Shown here one piece after another: positions 5,493 to 37,501 of a stretch of 64,000 nucleotides of DNA (the stretch's first letter is position 1; each line of letters opens with the position of its first letter). This DNA comes from an uncultured Ignavibacteria bacterium. Lineage in GTDB: Bacteria; Bacteroidota; Ignavibacteria; Kapaibacteriales; UBA2268. The DNA is taken from positions 124,001-188,000 of the forward strand of contig CAIOZA010000027.1 in assembly GCA_903862655.1 (NCBI GenBank). Direction: 5' to 3'. The translations under genes were made by a program, and so were the position numbers. The notes under the pieces are model-generated. The model was not told where the DNA came from, ran no database searches, and saw only the letters and a list, made by a program, of their open reading frames with translations.

Positions 5493-7667
5493 TTAAAATT
5501 CATTAAAGAATTTGGTTCTATGATCTTCAATTTTTGAATCTTCTTTTAACTTGTTAAACCATTGATAATATCCACCTGTTTTGAAGGTATTTCTTAATTG
5601 CACTAAGAAATCACCCATTTGCTTAGATGAATTATTAGCCTCTGGCACCACTTTGTTGTTAACCTGAATGATATAATAGCCTCTCTCGCCTCTGATTGGT
5701 TCACTAATTTGATTTAGAGGTGTAGAAAATACTTTCTCAGTAAAACCAAAGTCTTGCCCTAATCCGGGTACTACACCATTATTCTTAACACCGGCTGCAT
5801 TCTTTGCCTGAATAGAGGGATCAGTTGATTGATAACCTTGAATGTTGCCAATAGTTTTAACTTGAGAATATATGTTTTGAGCTTTATTCTTAAGTAAATC
5901 CAACTTTTTAGTATTTAATAATGTGTTTTTAATTTTATCCTTAACGTCTTCCAATGGAACTATCCCAGCTGTTCTCTGATCTTTTACCTGAACAACAACA
6001 ATTCCATTCTTCTTCATTTCAATTGGTTCAAGCACTTCACCAATTTTCATTTCGAATGCCTTAATTGCTATAAATTGTGATCCAAGTACTGGTTTTTCCT
6101 TTTCAAAAAATTCTGTCTCACGAGGTGTCTTATTGAAAAATTTAGAAACAGCATCAAAGCTCTCACCGTTATCAACTCTGGTTTTCAATTCTTTAGCATC
6201 TCGTCCAAGGCCCTTGATAGTCATTCTTGATATTTCGGGTTTGAGAACAATTTCTGTGAATTTAAGCTCATCGGATTGTTTATCGGTTACTTTGATAATG
6301 TGAAAGCCAAATTGTGATTCTACCGGGCCAACAATTGAACCAGTTTTAGCTGAAAATGCAGCTTCTTCGAATTCTTTAACCATCATTCCTTTTCCAAAGA
6401 AACCAACATCTCCTCCATTTTGAGCAGATCCTTTGTCGGAAGAATATTTTAGTGCAAGTTGAGCAAAATCTCCGGATTTTGTTTCAGCAAATATCTTTTG
6501 AGCTTCTGCTTGAGCACTATCTTTATTGGTGCCGAAAGGTATTAAAATATGGCTTGCTTTCACTACAAAGTTTTCACCAGAACGTCTATCGTCCAGTCTA
6601 TAGTAGCATATTCCGTCTTGCATCTGTACTGGTCCAACTATCTGATTTTTAACAAGAGTGGAAAGAATAGATAATTTTTGTGGTGATATATCTTTTACCT
6701 GAGTAAAGTCATGAACTGTACCCTTAAATTCTTCAGCTCTTTTGGTGAAATTCTTTACTAACTCTTCACCAGAATTCTTTATGTCATTATCTATCTTCTT
6801 AATAGCTTTGGATATTAATGCGGAATCGTTTGCAGAAGGAATCAAAGGAAAAAGTACATATTTGATTTTTCTTTTTTGTTTTTGGGGCCAGAGTTTTTTA
6901 TATTTTTCATAATATGTTTTGATCTCTTCATCATTTACAGTAGCATTATTATCTGCAATTAGTTTAGTATCTAGAAACAGAAAATTAACGTCAGCTGAAG
7001 AATTATCAGCTAGAAATTTTTCTTTTGCATATAAAGGCGAAACTACTGATAATGCAGAATTAATAGCTGTATTCAAACCATTTCTTAATTTTTCATCCTT
7101 TAAAGCTTTTTCAATTTTAAGTAAATCGGATCTAAAAGAATTTACTATTCTTCTCTTCTCTTCCTGTGGTGTGTTCTGAGGTAATCTGTTGAATATTACA
7201 TCCGGATTCCTCATGATTTCACGGTAGCTCTGCATGTTAAAATTACCAGTAGAATCAGTAAAAGGTTTTCTCAAAAATTCGGGAGGATTATTAAAGAAAA
7301 CATCTAACAATTCATCCTGTGTAACAGTAATTCCCATTTCGTTGGCAACCTGATTTAATAATTTGTCTTCCAGCATCTCAGACCATACAGATCTGCGTAT
7401 CTGAACATCATCAACCTCTTGTTCGTTGCCCTGAGCTTGCATCTGTTTCCTCTGTTGCTCAACTTGTTCTCTTACTTTTTCTTCAAAATCCTTATAAAGA
7501 ATTTTTTCTCCATTAACATCAGCAATAGAAGCAGTTTGAAAATTATCACCGCTTTTCATCATATTGCTCATGTCAGCATCAGATGCTACCATAAATCCTA
7601 CGAAAATGATTGCAAAAGCCGCCAGAACATATGGGGATGTCTGACGCATTCTTTCCATTGTACCCAT
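5493..7667 (-). CDS. PpiD/SurA-like peptidyl-prolyl isomerase chaperone
   Basis: This is a 724-residue membrane-anchored periplasmic folding factor. One N-terminal transmembrane helix (about 11-28, 'YVLAAFAIIFVGFMVAS') anchors it, followed by a SurA_N-type helical chaperone region (about 45-230). A full parvulin (PpiC) domain starts at 'VKASHILIPF' and includes 'GGDVGFFGKGMM' and 'GFHIIKV' (about 365-465). A second, more divergent parvulin-like segment near the C-terminus carries 'GYYIIQVNNK'. This matches PpiD of Bacteroidota, which helps outer-membrane and secreted proteins fold. The start at 7667 is preceded by AGGAG 10 bases upstream; an ATG three codons later is the alternative. It is transcribed alone, with a terminator downstream. 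Confidence 0.88.
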   Translation of the reverse strand: MGTMERMRQTSPYVLAAFAIIFVGFMVASDADMSNMMKSGDNFQTASIADVNGEKILYKDFEEKVREQVEQQRKQMQAQGNEQEVDDVQIRRSVWSEMLEDKLLNQVANEMGITVTQDELLDVFFNNPPEFLRKPFTDSTGNFNMQSYREIMRNPDVIFNRLPQNTPQEEKRRIVNSFRSDLLKIEKALKDEKLRNGLNTAINSALSVVSPLYAKEKFLADNSSADVNFLFLDTKLIADNNATVNDEEIKTYYEKYKKLWPQKQKRKIKYVLFPLIPSANDSALISKAIKKIDNDIKNSGEELVKNFTKRAEEFKGTVHDFTQVKDISPQKLSILSTLVKNQIVGPVQMQDGICYYRLDDRRSGENFVVKASHILIPFGTNKDSAQAEAQKIFAETKSGDFAQLALKYSSDKGSAQNGGDVGFFGKGMMVKEFEEAAFSAKTGSIVGPVESQFGFHIIKVTDKQSDELKFTEIVLKPEISRMTIKGLGRDAKELKTRVDNGESFDAVSKFFNKTPRETEFFEKEKPVLGSQFIAIKAFEMKIGEVLEPIEMKKNGIVVVQVKDQRTAGIVPLEDVKDKIKNTLLNTKKLDLLKNKAQNIYSQVKTIGNIQGYQSTDPSIQAKNAAGVKNNGVVPGLGQDFGFTEKVFSTPLNQISEPIRGERGYYIIQVNNKVVPEANNSSKQMGDFLVQLRNTFKTGGYYQWFNKLKEDSKIEDHRTKFFNEF

Positions 7668-31190: not shown

Positions 31191-33710
31191 TTATCTTGAA
31201 GGTAAGAACTCGATTCCTAATTTGAAATCAGAAGTTGGTTCTCTTTTAGTATTAATTTTAACGTATCCGCTATTTAAAAATAGTAAAATTTGGTCTGTAT
31301 AATTAGGACTAACTGGATCTCCAGATGCTCCTCCAGGTAAACTAGAATAAATAACAGAATCCTCCATGTCAGCAATAAATCTTCCAGAAACACCAACGGT
31401 AACTTTATAGGGGTTATAAAATTTCCAGTCGGCTTTGCTTATTGTTGTGAAATTACCACCAACCTGATATGGTCCTGAATTAACACTTGGTTTTAGGAAT
31501 TTATTTTCAGAAAATGTATGATTAAGTTCGAGAGTTTGAAGTTTGTTAAACTTCCAGTTATATATGTTTGAATCGTTGAAATATTGAGCTAACTCTTTTA
31601 TTGCTTTGGAATATGCACGTATTACTATACTATTTCTATCTTCTATCCATTGAGTACGATTATCATCAAAAAATATACTATCATTGTTCATAACCATATC
31701 ATAGATTTTCATAGACGATATTGAAGTAACATAAGAATAATTCCAGAGAAGTTTCTCCCCAAGTTCATCTACAAAGGTTTCATATATCAAATTTTTAAAA
31801 AATGATGAATATATGGATGGTGCAACAGATCCTGGAGAAAAGACAAAATCCCATTTTTTAAGAATCCAAACACTTTGTTTTGTAAGATTATCTAATGTAT
31901 TAATTTTAGATTCAAGTATAGGAAGAACAATTTGCATCATTTTCTGAGCATAAGGTGATAATATATCAGATTGCATTAATTGTACATCTCTAACCGTAAA
32001 CTCCTTTTGTTCATGGATAATTTGGTAAATTCTTTCAATTCTCGAGGGAGGTTCAAAGTAATTTGACATATAGTAAGAACTGTTATGAGATGTTTTATTA
32101 TTTGAACTTGCAACAAATTTCTTACTTGGATTAAAGATTTTGGGTAATTGGTTAGGATAAATAAACCCTTGCCAATCTTTATTCCCAAGCCAGGTTGGTG
32201 TAGGTAATAGGGGATTAGATTCTCTACGAATAGGAATGATTCCCACCGGAAAAATACCCATATTTCCCTTTATATCTGCATAAGTGAAATTTAATGAAGG
32301 GGAACCCCAATTATTCAGGGAATTTGTGAATTGATTCCAATCTTTTGCTTTGAGAATCTGATAAAGAGCTGTAGCCTCATAAGTAGGCTGTTGACCTGTC
32401 CAAGAGTAAGTTAAACAGTAATTTCTAAAATACTGATTATTTTTATCGTAGTATAGATTATTCGTAATATTAGATGGCTTACGCAATAAATGAAAATCAG
32501 AAATTACTGAAGATCTTTCAGTAGAGCGAATATAGTATGTATAAGGTTCTCTATTTTTTATTTTAATCGTATCCGCTTTAAAATTAAACTTGCGCTTCAA
32601 TCCTGAGGAATTATAATAATTATTTGGGTTTATACTATCAACCTTGTCAATGAAGAAATCACAATCATCAAGCATTACATTTGTTATACCCCAAGATATG
32701 TTATCATTTCTTCCTATTAGAAAGAAAGGGATACCTGGTAAAGTAAAGCCAGTAACATTAATATCATTAGAAGTTAAATGAATCTGATACCATTTTGGCG
32801 GTAATCCTAGAGATAAATGGGGATCATTTGCTAATATTACACCATTTGAAGATTTACTCTTTTTTAAAACCCAGGAATTGCTACCACCATTGGAATTATT
32901 TTTATATTTATTCTCAAAAAATGAAAGTAATTGACCAAACGTTTTTGAAACAATTGTTCTTGTTTCTTGATCCATTACACCTAGCTTTAATGTAGTATCA
33001 ACCTTATTAATAATTTTAGGATTATTTACTAATGAATCATCTAGAACGCAAGGTCCCCAAGATGGATATGGCTTAACTAATGAAGTTGCTTTTTCATTTC
33101 CGATTTTGGTTGCAATTTCGCCTATAGTTATGTCATTCATAAACCCTACACTCATATCAAATGCCATTAGTCTACCAATAAGAATACAATCGATGGGTGT
33201 CCAACTATATGGAATGTAATTAAGGGTTTGGAATTCAAAAGGTAGAGTTTTATAATTATTTTTTAAATAAAAGTTTACACCGGCTGAATATGATGTCAAA
33301 GCATTTAAAACAGTTTTGTTCAAATTATTTGTTATCTTTTGAGATACTGTTTTTAAATCTAATCCTCTGAAGAATTTATCGAAATCCAATGTTTCATCTC
33401 CAAATACTTCAGATAGTTCACCTTTGGCAGTTCTTCTCATCAAATCCATCTGCCATATTCTATCTCTAGCATGAATATAACCCATCATAAAAAAAGCATC
33501 ATTTTCATTTTTTGTAATTATGTGAGGTATCCCAAATTGATTGAAATACACCTTACAAGAATCGAATACTTTTTCAGTTTCTAAGAAAAGTTTTGAAGGT
33601 GGCAATGATAAGCTAGAAATTTTTAAAATAAAAAATAGTACTGAAATAAGAATTATCAGTGTTGAAAGTAAGATGGCAAAAGTTTTATTTAAAAAGTATC
33701 TTCTAAGCAT
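31191..33710 (-). CDS. Penicillin acylase family N-terminal nucleophile hydrolase
   Basis: 839 residues from the ATG at 33710, with an N-terminal hydrophobic signal/anchor (about 8-30). The alpha-chain part has 'GIPHIITKNENDAFFMMGY' and 'HARDRIWQMDLMRRTAKG'. The beta chain would begin at the Ser of 'GGSNSWVL', where the precursor self-cleaves, and continues 'ANDPHLSLGLPPKWYQ'. The C-terminal 'GGASGDPVSPNY' is typical. Members hydrolyse amide bonds in penicillins, acyl-homoserine lactones or other N-acyl compounds; the substrate is unknown. It lies 14 bp after the epimerase gene. Confidence 0.88.
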   Translation of the reverse strand: MLRRYFLNKTFAILLSTLIILISVLFFILKISSLSLPPSKLFLETEKVFDSCKVYFNQFGIPHIITKNENDAFFMMGYIHARDRIWQMDLMRRTAKGELSEVFGDETLDFDKFFRGLDLKTVSQKITNNLNKTVLNALTSYSAGVNFYLKNNYKTLPFEFQTLNYIPYSWTPIDCILIGRLMAFDMSVGFMNDITIGEIATKIGNEKATSLVKPYPSWGPCVLDDSLVNNPKIINKVDTTLKLGVMDQETRTIVSKTFGQLLSFFENKYKNNSNGGSNSWVLKKSKSSNGVILANDPHLSLGLPPKWYQIHLTSNDINVTGFTLPGIPFFLIGRNDNISWGITNVMLDDCDFFIDKVDSINPNNYYNSSGLKRKFNFKADTIKIKNREPYTYYIRSTERSSVISDFHLLRKPSNITNNLYYDKNNQYFRNYCLTYSWTGQQPTYEATALYQILKAKDWNQFTNSLNNWGSPSLNFTYADIKGNMGIFPVGIIPIRRESNPLLPTPTWLGNKDWQGFIYPNQLPKIFNPSKKFVASSNNKTSHNSSYYMSNYFEPPSRIERIYQIIHEQKEFTVRDVQLMQSDILSPYAQKMMQIVLPILESKINTLDNLTKQSVWILKKWDFVFSPGSVAPSIYSSFFKNLIYETFVDELGEKLLWNYSYVTSISSMKIYDMVMNNDSIFFDDNRTQWIEDRNSIVIRAYSKAIKELAQYFNDSNIYNWKFNKLQTLELNHTFSENKFLKPSVNSGPYQVGGNFTTISKADWKFYNPYKVTVGVSGRFIADMEDSVIYSSLPGGASGDPVSPNYTDQILLFLNSGYVKINTKREPTSDFKLGIEFLPSR

Positions 33711-33724
33711 AAGTATCAAATCTT

Positions 33725-34711
33725 CTAAAACCAGTTATTCTGTTTATACCAATTAATTGTTGATTTTAATCCATCATCAAGTGATATGAGTTGTTTAAAT
33801 CCAAAATCAGTTTTAGATTTTTCAACAGAGCAAGTCCAGTAATTCTGTACAAAATCTCTTCCTTTATCGATATTAAATATTGGTGGTTTTTCACTAAATT
33901 TACCAAAAAATTCAGATAAACTAGCAATAGTAAACACAACAAGATGAGGAATATGGATTTTAACAAACATATCTCTATTAAGAGCTGACTTTATTGAATC
34001 CATTATTGTATCCCAACTGTAAAATTCTTCTGAAGCGACAAAATATGTTTTGCTAATTGTATTTTCAGAAAAAGCAGAATCAATAATTCCCTTTACTAGA
34101 TCATCGGAATGAATAAAATTTACATACTTCTGATTAAAACCAATTAATGTTCCTAATCCTTTGTTTGCAAGTTGAAAAATTTGAAAAGTAGCTGGATCTC
34201 TTGGTCCATATACTGCAGGTGGTCTGATAATTGTAATTGGTAACTTGTTCTGAAAACTATTTACAACATCTTCAGCAGCTTTTTTACTTCTTCCATAAGC
34301 AGTTATTGGGTTACATATATCATCTTCAGTAATTGGCTTTGCAAATGAATGTGCTGGTCCAGCCGCAGTTTGACTGCTTACATGTAAAAATCTTTTTATA
34401 TTTGGAGCCGATTGTATGGTAGCTTCCAGAAGATTTCTAGTTGCATCACAATTTCCCTTTAAGTACTCATGATCATTTTTAGCCGCAACAACACCTGCAA
34501 CATGAAAAATATAATCAACATTTTCAACTGCTTTGCATAAAGAGTCAACATCAGATAAAGAAGCTTCCATTGTTTCTATATTCTTATCTTTAAGCCATCT
34601 TAAATTACTAGTCTTCCTAAAGATACATCTAACATCCATTCCTAGCTCAATTAGAGCATCAGTTACATGTGAACCAATAAATCCTGTTGCACCGGTTACT
34701 AAAGCTTTCAG
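33725..34711 (-). CDS. NAD(P)-dependent epimerase/dehydratase family protein, apparent CTG start
   Basis: An extended short-chain dehydrogenase, 328 residues if it begins at CTG 34711. The nucleotide-binding 'LVTGATGFIGSHV' lies right at that N-terminus, and the catalytic 'YGRSKKAAED' (YxxxK) and 'HVSSQTAAG' follow. The first ATG (34639) would remove the whole Rossmann glycine motif. The frame has a TAA 39 bases upstream of the CTG and no ATG, GTG or TTG in between. CGGAG stands 6 bases before the CTG, an ideal ribosome site. The function is probably sugar-nucleotide or 3-beta-hydroxysteroid-dehydrogenase-like reductase; the substrate is unknown. Confidence 0.8.
   Translation of the reverse strand: MKALVTGATGFIGSHVTDALIELGMDVRCIFRKTSNLRWLKDKNIETMEASLSDVDSLCKAVENVDYIFHVAGVVAAKNDHEYLKGNCDATRNLLEATIQSAPNIKRFLHVSSQTAAGPAHSFAKPITEDDICNPITAYGRSKKAAEDVVNSFQNKLPITIIRPPAVYGPRDPATFQIFQLANKGLGTLIGFNQKYVNFIHSDDLVKGIIDSAFSENTISKTYFVASEEFYSWDTIMDSIKSALNRDMFVKIHIPHLVVFTIASLSEFFGKFSEKPPIFNIDKGRDFVQNYWTCSVEKSKTDFGFKQLISLDDGLKSTINWYKQNNWF
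34706..34711 (-). promoter_or_regulatory. Ribosome site that decides a CTG start
   Basis: On the minus strand CGGAG (34718-34722) is followed by AATTTT and then CTG-AAA-GCT. Homologues normally read M-K-A-L-V-T-G-A-T-G here, so CTG occupies the position of the initiator. This is inferred from spacing and family alignment. Confidence 0.6.
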
Positions 34712-34993
34712 AAAATTCTCCGATAAAAATAATGAAAATTCGAATTACAAAATTAAATATAAGAGATGGATAAATCAGAATTATTTTGATAAAGCAAACA
34801 CTTTTGAAAAAATGTATCCATTGCTAATCTTAGATTTAAAAAAAGGAACTAGGTCAAAAATTAAAATATATTTTCAATTTGAATGTTTTTTGGAATTAAT
34901 TAATGATTTTAATTGAAAATATTTTCTAAAAATGAGTAAAATCAATATATTGCATAATCTATAATCATTTTATTTTTTGTATATGGTATTAAT

Positions 34994-37501
34994 ATGAATA
35001 AAGCAGTAATAATGGCGGGTGGATTTGGAACAAGATTAAGACCTTTAACTATGACTATACCTAAACCTATGGTGCCAATTTTAAATATTCCAATGGTTCA
35101 CCATATTGTTAATCTTTTGAAAACACATAATATCACAGAAATTGTATCTGTTCTATATTTCCAACCGGAAGTCATAACCAATCATTTTGGAGATGGTTCT
35201 CATTTTGGAGTTGAGATGCAGTATGTTCAGGCACACGCAGATTATGGAACCGCTGGAGCAGTAAAGAATGCATATGAGTATTTAGATAAAAGATTCATTA
35301 TTATTTCTGGTGATGTACTGACTGACTTTGATTTAACAAAAGCCATCGAATTTCATATTGAAAATAAATCTAAAGCTACAATTCTATTAACCAGAGTTCC
35401 ATCACCACTTCAATACGGTATCGTTATGACGGACAAAGATGGAAAAATTACACGCTTTCTTGAAAAGCCTTCATGGGGAGAAGTTTTTTCAGATACAATT
35501 AATACTGGAATTTACATACTCGAGCCGGAAGTACTTGACCTTATACCATACCAGGAAGAGTATGATTTCAGTAAAGATCTTTTTCCGGAAATGCTCAGAT
35601 TGAAGATGCCACTATATGGATATGTTGCAGAGGGATATTGGAAGGATGTCGGCAATCTTAATGAATATCAACAGGGGCAAATTGATGCTCTTCATGGAGA
35701 TGTAAAACTAAATGTTCTTGATTTTAAAAAAAATAATTTAAAAATTGGTAAACATTCAAAGATTTCTCCAACGGCAAAATTATCTGGGAATGTTGTTATT
35801 GGCGATAATACTGTAATTGGAGACCAAGTTGTTTTGATTGATTCTGTTATTGGAAGCAATGTTGAAATAGGTATGGGTAGCCGTTTATCTGGTGTTACCC
35901 TATGGGATAATGTAAAAATTGGAAATTTTGCTGATATTACAGACAGCGTTATTTGTAATGATACTTCGATAGGTAACTCTACCACAATAGCTGAAAATGT
36001 TTTTATATCTGTTGGATGTTCAATCGGTAATGGTGCTAAGTTAATGGCTAACATTAAACTCTGGCCTCTGAAGCATGTAGAGGACGGAGCCACCTTATCA
36101 AGATCAATGGTCCAGGAAGAAAAATGGTTAAGAGAACTATTTACTGATGCCAGAATTACCGGCATTTCAAATATCGAAATTCACCCAGAATTCTGTTCCA
36201 AGCTAGGATCAGCTATTGGTCTTACTTTTGGTAAAAATGTTACCTTACTTGCCTCTAGAGATCCTGACAAAGTATCTAGAATAATGAAGCGTGCCATTAC
36301 AGCTGGATTATCTTCCGTAGGTGTTAATGTTAACGATCTTCAATCAACATCAATTCCACAAACTAGGCAAGAGCTAAGGACTGGTAAATATGCAGGTGGA
36401 CTTCACGTGAGACGATCTCCAAGGAATCCTGATAAAACCGATATTATTATTTTTAACAAAGAGGGAAGAGATATTCCTATTGCCAGAACAAAAACAATTG
36501 AAAGATATTTCTTCGGAGAGGATGTTCATAGAGTTCATCATAATGAGATAGGCCATATATATTATCCCGAAAGAACTAATGAAATATATATCAATCGGTT
36601 CCTTCATTCAGTAAATATTGATTTGATTCAACAAACTAAATTCAAATTGTTAGTTGATTATTCTTATGGATTAGCCTCAACAATCTTTCCATATATTTTA
36701 GGTCAAATGCACGTAGATTCATTATCATTACATGATTTTATTGATGCCACTCGGAGGTATTCTCCCAATACAGACAGTCATAACCCAGCTGATGATGAAG
36801 TTTCAACTATTATGAGATCTCTTCGGTATGAACTTGGATTTGTTATTGATCCAGGAGCTGAGAAAATTTCATTAATTGATGGTAGGGGAGTTCGTTACGA
36901 TCATCAAAGGCTATTATCTTTAGTCGTTAAATTATTCCTAGAAACCAACAAAGAACGGGAACCATATAAAATAGCAGTTTCAGTTTGTGCAAGTAAAGAA
37001 ATTGATTTAATTGCGAAAGATTATAATGTTGAAGTAATCAGAATAAAGAATAACCATTCTGCGATGATGGAATCTACTCGTGAAACCGATCAACATTTCG
37101 TTGGTGGTCTTTATGGTGGATTTATATTTAGTGACTTTTTATTTGCAAATGATGGTATGTTTTCAATTGCTAAAATATTAGAAATGCTAGCAATAACAAA
37201 AAGAGAAATTTTTGATTATGATAATGAGTTACCTAGAAGGTATCAGCATCAGACAATCGTAGATTGCCCTTGGGAATTCAAAGGTATGGTTATGAGGAAA
37301 GCAATGGAATATTCTGAAAGTTTTAGTAGAGAATTAGTTGAAGGAATAAAAATATTCATTGATGATGATTGGATTCTGATGATGCCAGATCGTGAAAATC
37401 CAGCTTTCCAAGTCATAGCCGACAGCGGAAATTATGATACTGCCCAGTCGATAAGTAAGAAATATGGAGCTCTTGTTACTCATTGGATCGAAGAAGCATA
37501 A
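34994..37501 (+). CDS. Mannose-1-phosphate guanylyltransferase-like protein fused to a degenerate phosphomannomutase domain
   Basis: 835 residues in three parts. 1-235 is a nucleotidyltransferase with 'MAGGFGTRLRPLTMTIPKPM' and 'GYWKDVGNL'. About 250-365 is a left-handed beta-helix of hexapeptide repeats ('GDNTVIGDQVVLIDSVIG'). About 380-835 is homologous to phosphomannomutase/phosphoglucomutase. The first domain should make GDP-mannose or a similar sugar nucleotide. In the third domain the catalytic serine loop reads 'HVRRSPRNPDKTD' in place of TASHNP, the metal loop reads 'DPGAEKISL' in place of DxDxDR, and the sugar loop reads 'GGLYGGF'. It is therefore probably regulatory. Similar fusions are known in several phyla. 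Confidence 0.85.
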   Translation: MNKAVIMAGGFGTRLRPLTMTIPKPMVPILNIPMVHHIVNLLKTHNITEIVSVLYFQPEVITNHFGDGSHFGVEMQYVQAHADYGTAGAVKNAYEYLDKRFIIISGDVLTDFDLTKAIEFHIENKSKATILLTRVPSPLQYGIVMTDKDGKITRFLEKPSWGEVFSDTINTGIYILEPEVLDLIPYQEEYDFSKDLFPEMLRLKMPLYGYVAEGYWKDVGNLNEYQQGQIDALHGDVKLNVLDFKKNNLKIGKHSKISPTAKLSGNVVIGDNTVIGDQVVLIDSVIGSNVEIGMGSRLSGVTLWDNVKIGNFADITDSVICNDTSIGNSTTIAENVFISVGCSIGNGAKLMANIKLWPLKHVEDGATLSRSMVQEEKWLRELFTDARITGISNIEIHPEFCSKLGSAIGLTFGKNVTLLASRDPDKVSRIMKRAITAGLSSVGVNVNDLQSTSIPQTRQELRTGKYAGGLHVRRSPRNPDKTDIIIFNKEGRDIPIARTKTIERYFFGEDVHRVHHNEIGHIYYPERTNEIYINRFLHSVNIDLIQQTKFKLLVDYSYGLASTIFPYILGQMHVDSLSLHDFIDATRRYSPNTDSHNPADDEVSTIMRSLRYELGFVIDPGAEKISLIDGRGVRYDHQRLLSLVVKLFLETNKEREPYKIAVSVCASKEIDLIAKDYNVEVIRIKNNHSAMMESTRETDQHFVGGLYGGFIFSDFLFANDGMFSIAKILEMLAITKREIFDYDNELPRRYQHQTIVDCPWEFKGMVMRKAMEYSESFSRELVEGIKIFIDDDWILMMPDRENPAFQVIADSGNYDTAQSISKKYGALVTHWIEEA

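Follow-up and report, generated by a model that had tools for sequence, protein, structure and literature searches.

The window, by which we mean the whole stretch of 64,000 nucleotides that was analysed, carries on its minus strand an epimerase-like gene whose reading frame appears to open at a CTG codon. An acylase-like gene lies directly downstream, and a sugar nucleotidyltransferase fusion diverges from the other side. The features are as follows.

31191-33719, minus strand: penicillin-acylase/PvdQ-like gene, directly downstream of the epimerase gene (weak NF051460 match)
33725-34711, minus strand: extended-SDR/NAD-dependent epimerase-dehydratase gene with an intact frame of 328 codons and a stop, CTG being the proposed start
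34637-34639, minus strand: first in-frame ATG, the start for gene callers limited to ATG/GTG/TTG; it drops 24 residues, including TGATGFIG
34708-34723, minus strand: possible 6-pair hairpin UCGGAG-AAUU-UUCUGA, spanning the ribosome site and the CTG (-4.1 kcal/mol, not significant)
34709-34711, minus strand: proposed CTG start codon, aligned with the usual start codons of relatives
34718-34722, minus strand: CGGAG, probable Shine-Dalgarno site, six bases (AATTTT) before the CTG
34745-34747, minus strand: preceding TAA in frame, reading upstream of the CTG
34994-37501, plus strand: sugar-1-phosphate nucleotidyltransferase/phosphomutase fusion, the divergent neighbour

The epimerase gene ends with its stop codon at 33725, and its 328 codons are free of internal stops and frameshifts. 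As the initial annotation had claimed, no ATG, GTG or TTG lies between the cofactor motif and the preceding in-frame TAA when the codons are read on the minus strand. The 11 codons between that TAA (34747) and the CTG at 34711-34709 (TTC GAA TTT TCA TTA TTT TTA TCG GAG AAT TTT) contain no in-frame ATG, GTG, TTG, ATT, ATC or ATA, and the frame then runs CTG AAA GCT TTA GTA ACC GGT GCA ACA GGA TTT ATT GGT. An in-frame start further upstream is rejected on the ground that the 11 codons back to the TAA hold no table-11 start, and the CTG is the only table-11 start that retains the glycine motif TGATGFIG. A start in a shifted frame is likewise rejected, as the 88 bases upstream, inspected by eye, lack ATG and GTG in every frame and have TTG only at their far end and directly before the TAA. 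The CGGAG that had been described six bases before the CTG is indeed present at 34722-34718, with the spacer AATTTT. The first ATG (34639) lies 24 codons 3' of the CTG, and it is here that an ORF listing with the usual starts begins; a run of 23 further codons lacking ATG, GTG and TTG is expected in about 35% of cases and is by itself unremarkable. The placement of the CTG, on the other hand, goes beyond chance, because CTG makes up only about 1% of triplets in the sampled genome, coding and non-coding alike, yet it falls on the exact start codon of 65 of 68 relatives. The promoter scan returned 11 sites against 9.2 expected and is uninformative, and the same scan found no terminator.

Judged from its profile matches, the predicted product is an extended-SDR enzyme (NAD-dependent epimerase/dehydratase-like). 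Read from the CTG, it matches PF01370 (Pfam Epimerase) with 117.8 bits against a gathering cut-off of 20.9, covering profile positions 1-222 of 240. Read from the ATG at 34639, the score falls to 79.1 bits and the match begins only at profile position 24, so that ATG-based calling does lose the cofactor site TGATGFIG, as had been predicted. The nearest curated family is TIGR03466 (HpnA), to which residues 2-326 give a full-length match; the score of 139 bits stays below the TIGR03466 cut-off of 367.65, unlike that for PF01370, and identity with HpnA, the hopanoid-associated sugar epimerase, is rejected. Relatives with solved structures are putative oxidoreductases and epimerases.

Orthologues were found at E<=1e-40 in 56 of 60 related genomes (own genome counted). 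A search for closer relatives took in 54 genomes of the family and 123 of the order, among which the source genome is the sole member of its genus and the nearest relative of the epimerase is 58% identical; a wider search, through named genomes, turned up 7 loci, the best at 40% identity. Orthology of the relatives is supported by conserved neighbours: at 57 of the 68 loci in relatives the acylase-like gene adjoins the epimerase orthologue. The nucleotidyltransferase neighbour has a strong match in 23 of 68, with L102 (a 22-residue piece) and L018 (a 25% match) excluded from the count. The residue-1 codon, as aligned in the 68 relatives (G057, G012 and G076 having been left out for a missing N-terminus), is ATG in 52, GTG in seven, TTG in six, and CCT, CAA and GAT in one each; the last three all carry an ATG one or two codons upstream. 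The claim of the initial annotation that the CTG sits at the position of the family's initiator Met thus agrees with the ATG, GTG or TTG aligned there in 65 of the 68. CTG itself is found at this codon in none of the 68. In sum, the aligned codons fix the position of the start firmly and make the CTG private to this lineage as sampled.

In a tree of 50 rows the epimerase groups with L012 (support 88/90), whose start is also shifted, by two codons. We note that the L012 and L009 orthologues have moved their starts upstream to an ATG, by two codons and one codon respectively, with CAA and CCT left at the usual position.

Usual start codons at this position in relatives had been named in advance as evidence against a CTG start, and, taken literally, such codons are what the relatives carry. 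But the relatives are distant, coming from other genera and sharing 58% identity at best; as such they locate the start and do not show the CTG to be wrong. What stands of the original proposal is the exact family position, the intact motif, the Shine-Dalgarno spacing and the coding signal; what counts against it is the ATG, GTG or TTG at the same codon in relatives, which leaves room for an error in the base or a mutation in the recent past.

The sequence upstream of the CTG resembles a ribosome site by the standards of its own genome. GGAG occurs at -18 to -4 in 19 of 188 sampled ATG genes, compared with 2 of 188 in the control interval -60 to -46, and its distance from the start is mostly 5-7 bases; at the epimerase CTG the distance is 6. 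Among the orthologues, 7 of 13 GTG/TTG starts have a Shine-Dalgarno tetramer before them, compared with 8 of 52 where the start is ATG (Fisher p 0.007, with relatedness not corrected for), and the corresponding counts for Shine-Dalgarno trinucleotides are 9 of 13 and 19 of 52 (p 0.058). Since the tetramer is commoner before GTG and TTG, the pairing of weak starts with good ribosome sites looks like a habit of this epimerase family. This excess fits the compensation of GUG and UUG starts by stronger Shine-Dalgarno sites that is described in PMC5622118.

We scanned the source genome, a draft in 148 contigs, for coding signal extending from the preceding stop to the first ATG, GTG or TTG. The scan covered 1,117,015 of 4,070,917 bases and 751 gene-like ORFs (402,286 bases and 311 ORFs in a first pass), and the epimerase ranks first of the 751. 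The second rank is held by prfB (510.6 bits; L074 on contig C139, 1057-2115, plus strand), whose programmed frameshift is familiar from other bacteria; as a positive control, it indicates that the scan picks up unusually decoded genes. Like the epimerase, prfB shows coding signal ahead of its first usual start. The two differ in that the prfB start of other bacteria lies in another frame, whereas no upstream frame of this kind exists for the epimerase.

The fourth rank is a metallophosphoesterase gene (L145 on contig C85, 6150-7202, plus strand) with no ATG, GTG or TTG before its metal-binding motif, the first ATG lying inside that motif. The only table-11 start before the conserved N-terminal stretch, and the likely start on the reading of this frame, is an ATT at 6153-6155 that follows GAGG at a distance of six bases; ATT and ATC codons located further inside the frame are possible starts too. 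A search of 39 other genomes gave orthologues in 4: one starts at a TTG placed one codon 3' of the ATT, another at an ATG a few codons upstream, and two further upstream. With orthologue starts so scattered, and mostly upstream, the ATT case is weaker than that of the epimerase. The count of such genes is a lower bound, as CTG starts with an ATG soon after them escape detection.

Taken together, the position of the CTG, the ribosome site and the coding signal lead us to favour, with a probability of about 0.76, translation of the epimerase from the CTG at 34711 as a lineage-specific change, the full-length enzyme being made with fMet and with good Shine-Dalgarno help. The CTG would descend from an ancestral start, ATG, GTG or TTG, altered by a base change, a single transition being enough in the case of TTG. 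The GGAG would pair with the tail of 16S rRNA and bring the CUG into the P site, to be read there by the ordinary initiator tRNA via a weak first-position pair; with this tRNA so paired, the N-terminus of the protein would most likely be fMet and not Leu. The N-terminus predicted from the CTG is Met-KALVTGATGFIG (KALVTG after Met removal), and that from the ATG at 34639 is MDVRCIF. We infer that the CTG is used in the cell and that, helped by the good Shine-Dalgarno site, fMet initiation proceeds at a lower rate, with lowered expression. Counting against this reading, none of the 68 relatives has CTG at the codon, and no relative among the 54 family and 123 order genomes exceeds 58% identity, which is too distant to show the CTG as fixed and old.

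Altered initiation machinery was considered and rejected, because an ordinary IF3 gene and an initiator-type tRNA are present. One IF3 gene scores over the cut-off in the genome, and its ORF is able to begin at TTG. The infC frame (L163 on contig C121) opens TCT TTG AAG AAA GTT ATT AGC, from which TTG or ATT, and not ATG, is probably the start codon of infC itself. One tRNA-Met, in which GGG/CCC flank the anticodon loop and the first position is unpaired, has the traits of an initiator tRNA.

The alternative that survives best, though we consider it unlikely, is that the C is an artefact of the draft assembly, of consensus or of strain, and that the population carries TTG, GTG or ATG. The genome is indeed in 148 contigs, one wrong base would be enough, and a usual start lies at or within two codons of the position in all 68 relatives; but the remainder of the frame is intact, with no further sign of error, and the second odd start in the genome, that of the metallophosphoesterase, would need another error right at a start codon.

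CUG starts are inefficient, and the gene might instead have lost its start recently, being weakened or disappearing and making at most the short form from the ATG at 34639, without the cofactor motif. We regard this as improbable. The confinement of the CTG to this lineage (none of 68 relatives) and the weak first base pair at CUG, as described in PMC11497404, agree with such a loss, and N-terminal conservation reflects past selection, which would outlast it. Set against this, no stop or frameshift has entered the 328 codons, the conserved gene neighbour is retained, and so is the GGAG at the right spacing. That the CTG and hairpin form a deliberate low-output or temperature-dependent control element is very improbable: the hairpin pairs the GGAG with the start region at -4.1 kcal/mol, and the opening energy there is matched or exceeded by just 8% of 188 sampled genes, but folding in 51-, 81- and 131-base contexts is no better than that of shuffled sequences (z +0.67 to +1.53).

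If translation does start at the CTG, it is rare but of a known kind, since published switches to CUG are few yet recorded. Those given in PMC5622118 (Belinky, Rogozin, Koonin 2017) amount to 2 of 61,358 ancestral AUG starts, 1 of 5,080 GUG and 1 of 2,468 UUG, and in each case, as proposed for the epimerase, the start codon of a conserved gene was replaced by CUG; the epimerase differs in that its CTG, possibly not fixed, comes from a draft genome without close relatives. CUG departs from AUG in the first base of the codon. CUG initiation is also on record in PMC11497404, where structures obtained with a variant initiator tRNA have a weak first pair but the correct frame.

A CTG start here would bring new insight into initiation only if it turned out to be regulated, or if the genome were shown to contain many such starts. 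It is conceivable, but doubtful, that near-cognate initiation is more tolerated in this genome, in view of the CTG epimerase and the ATT metallophosphoesterase found in the sampled quarter, each with a GGAG/GAGG-type site six bases upstream, in which case CTG- and ATT-started genes of the lineage may be systematically truncated by gene callers. If true, the epimerase itself would be a clean further example of CTG initiation, its codon fixed by the family alignment, and pipelines limited to ATG, GTG and TTG would yield an epimerase without its cofactor site.
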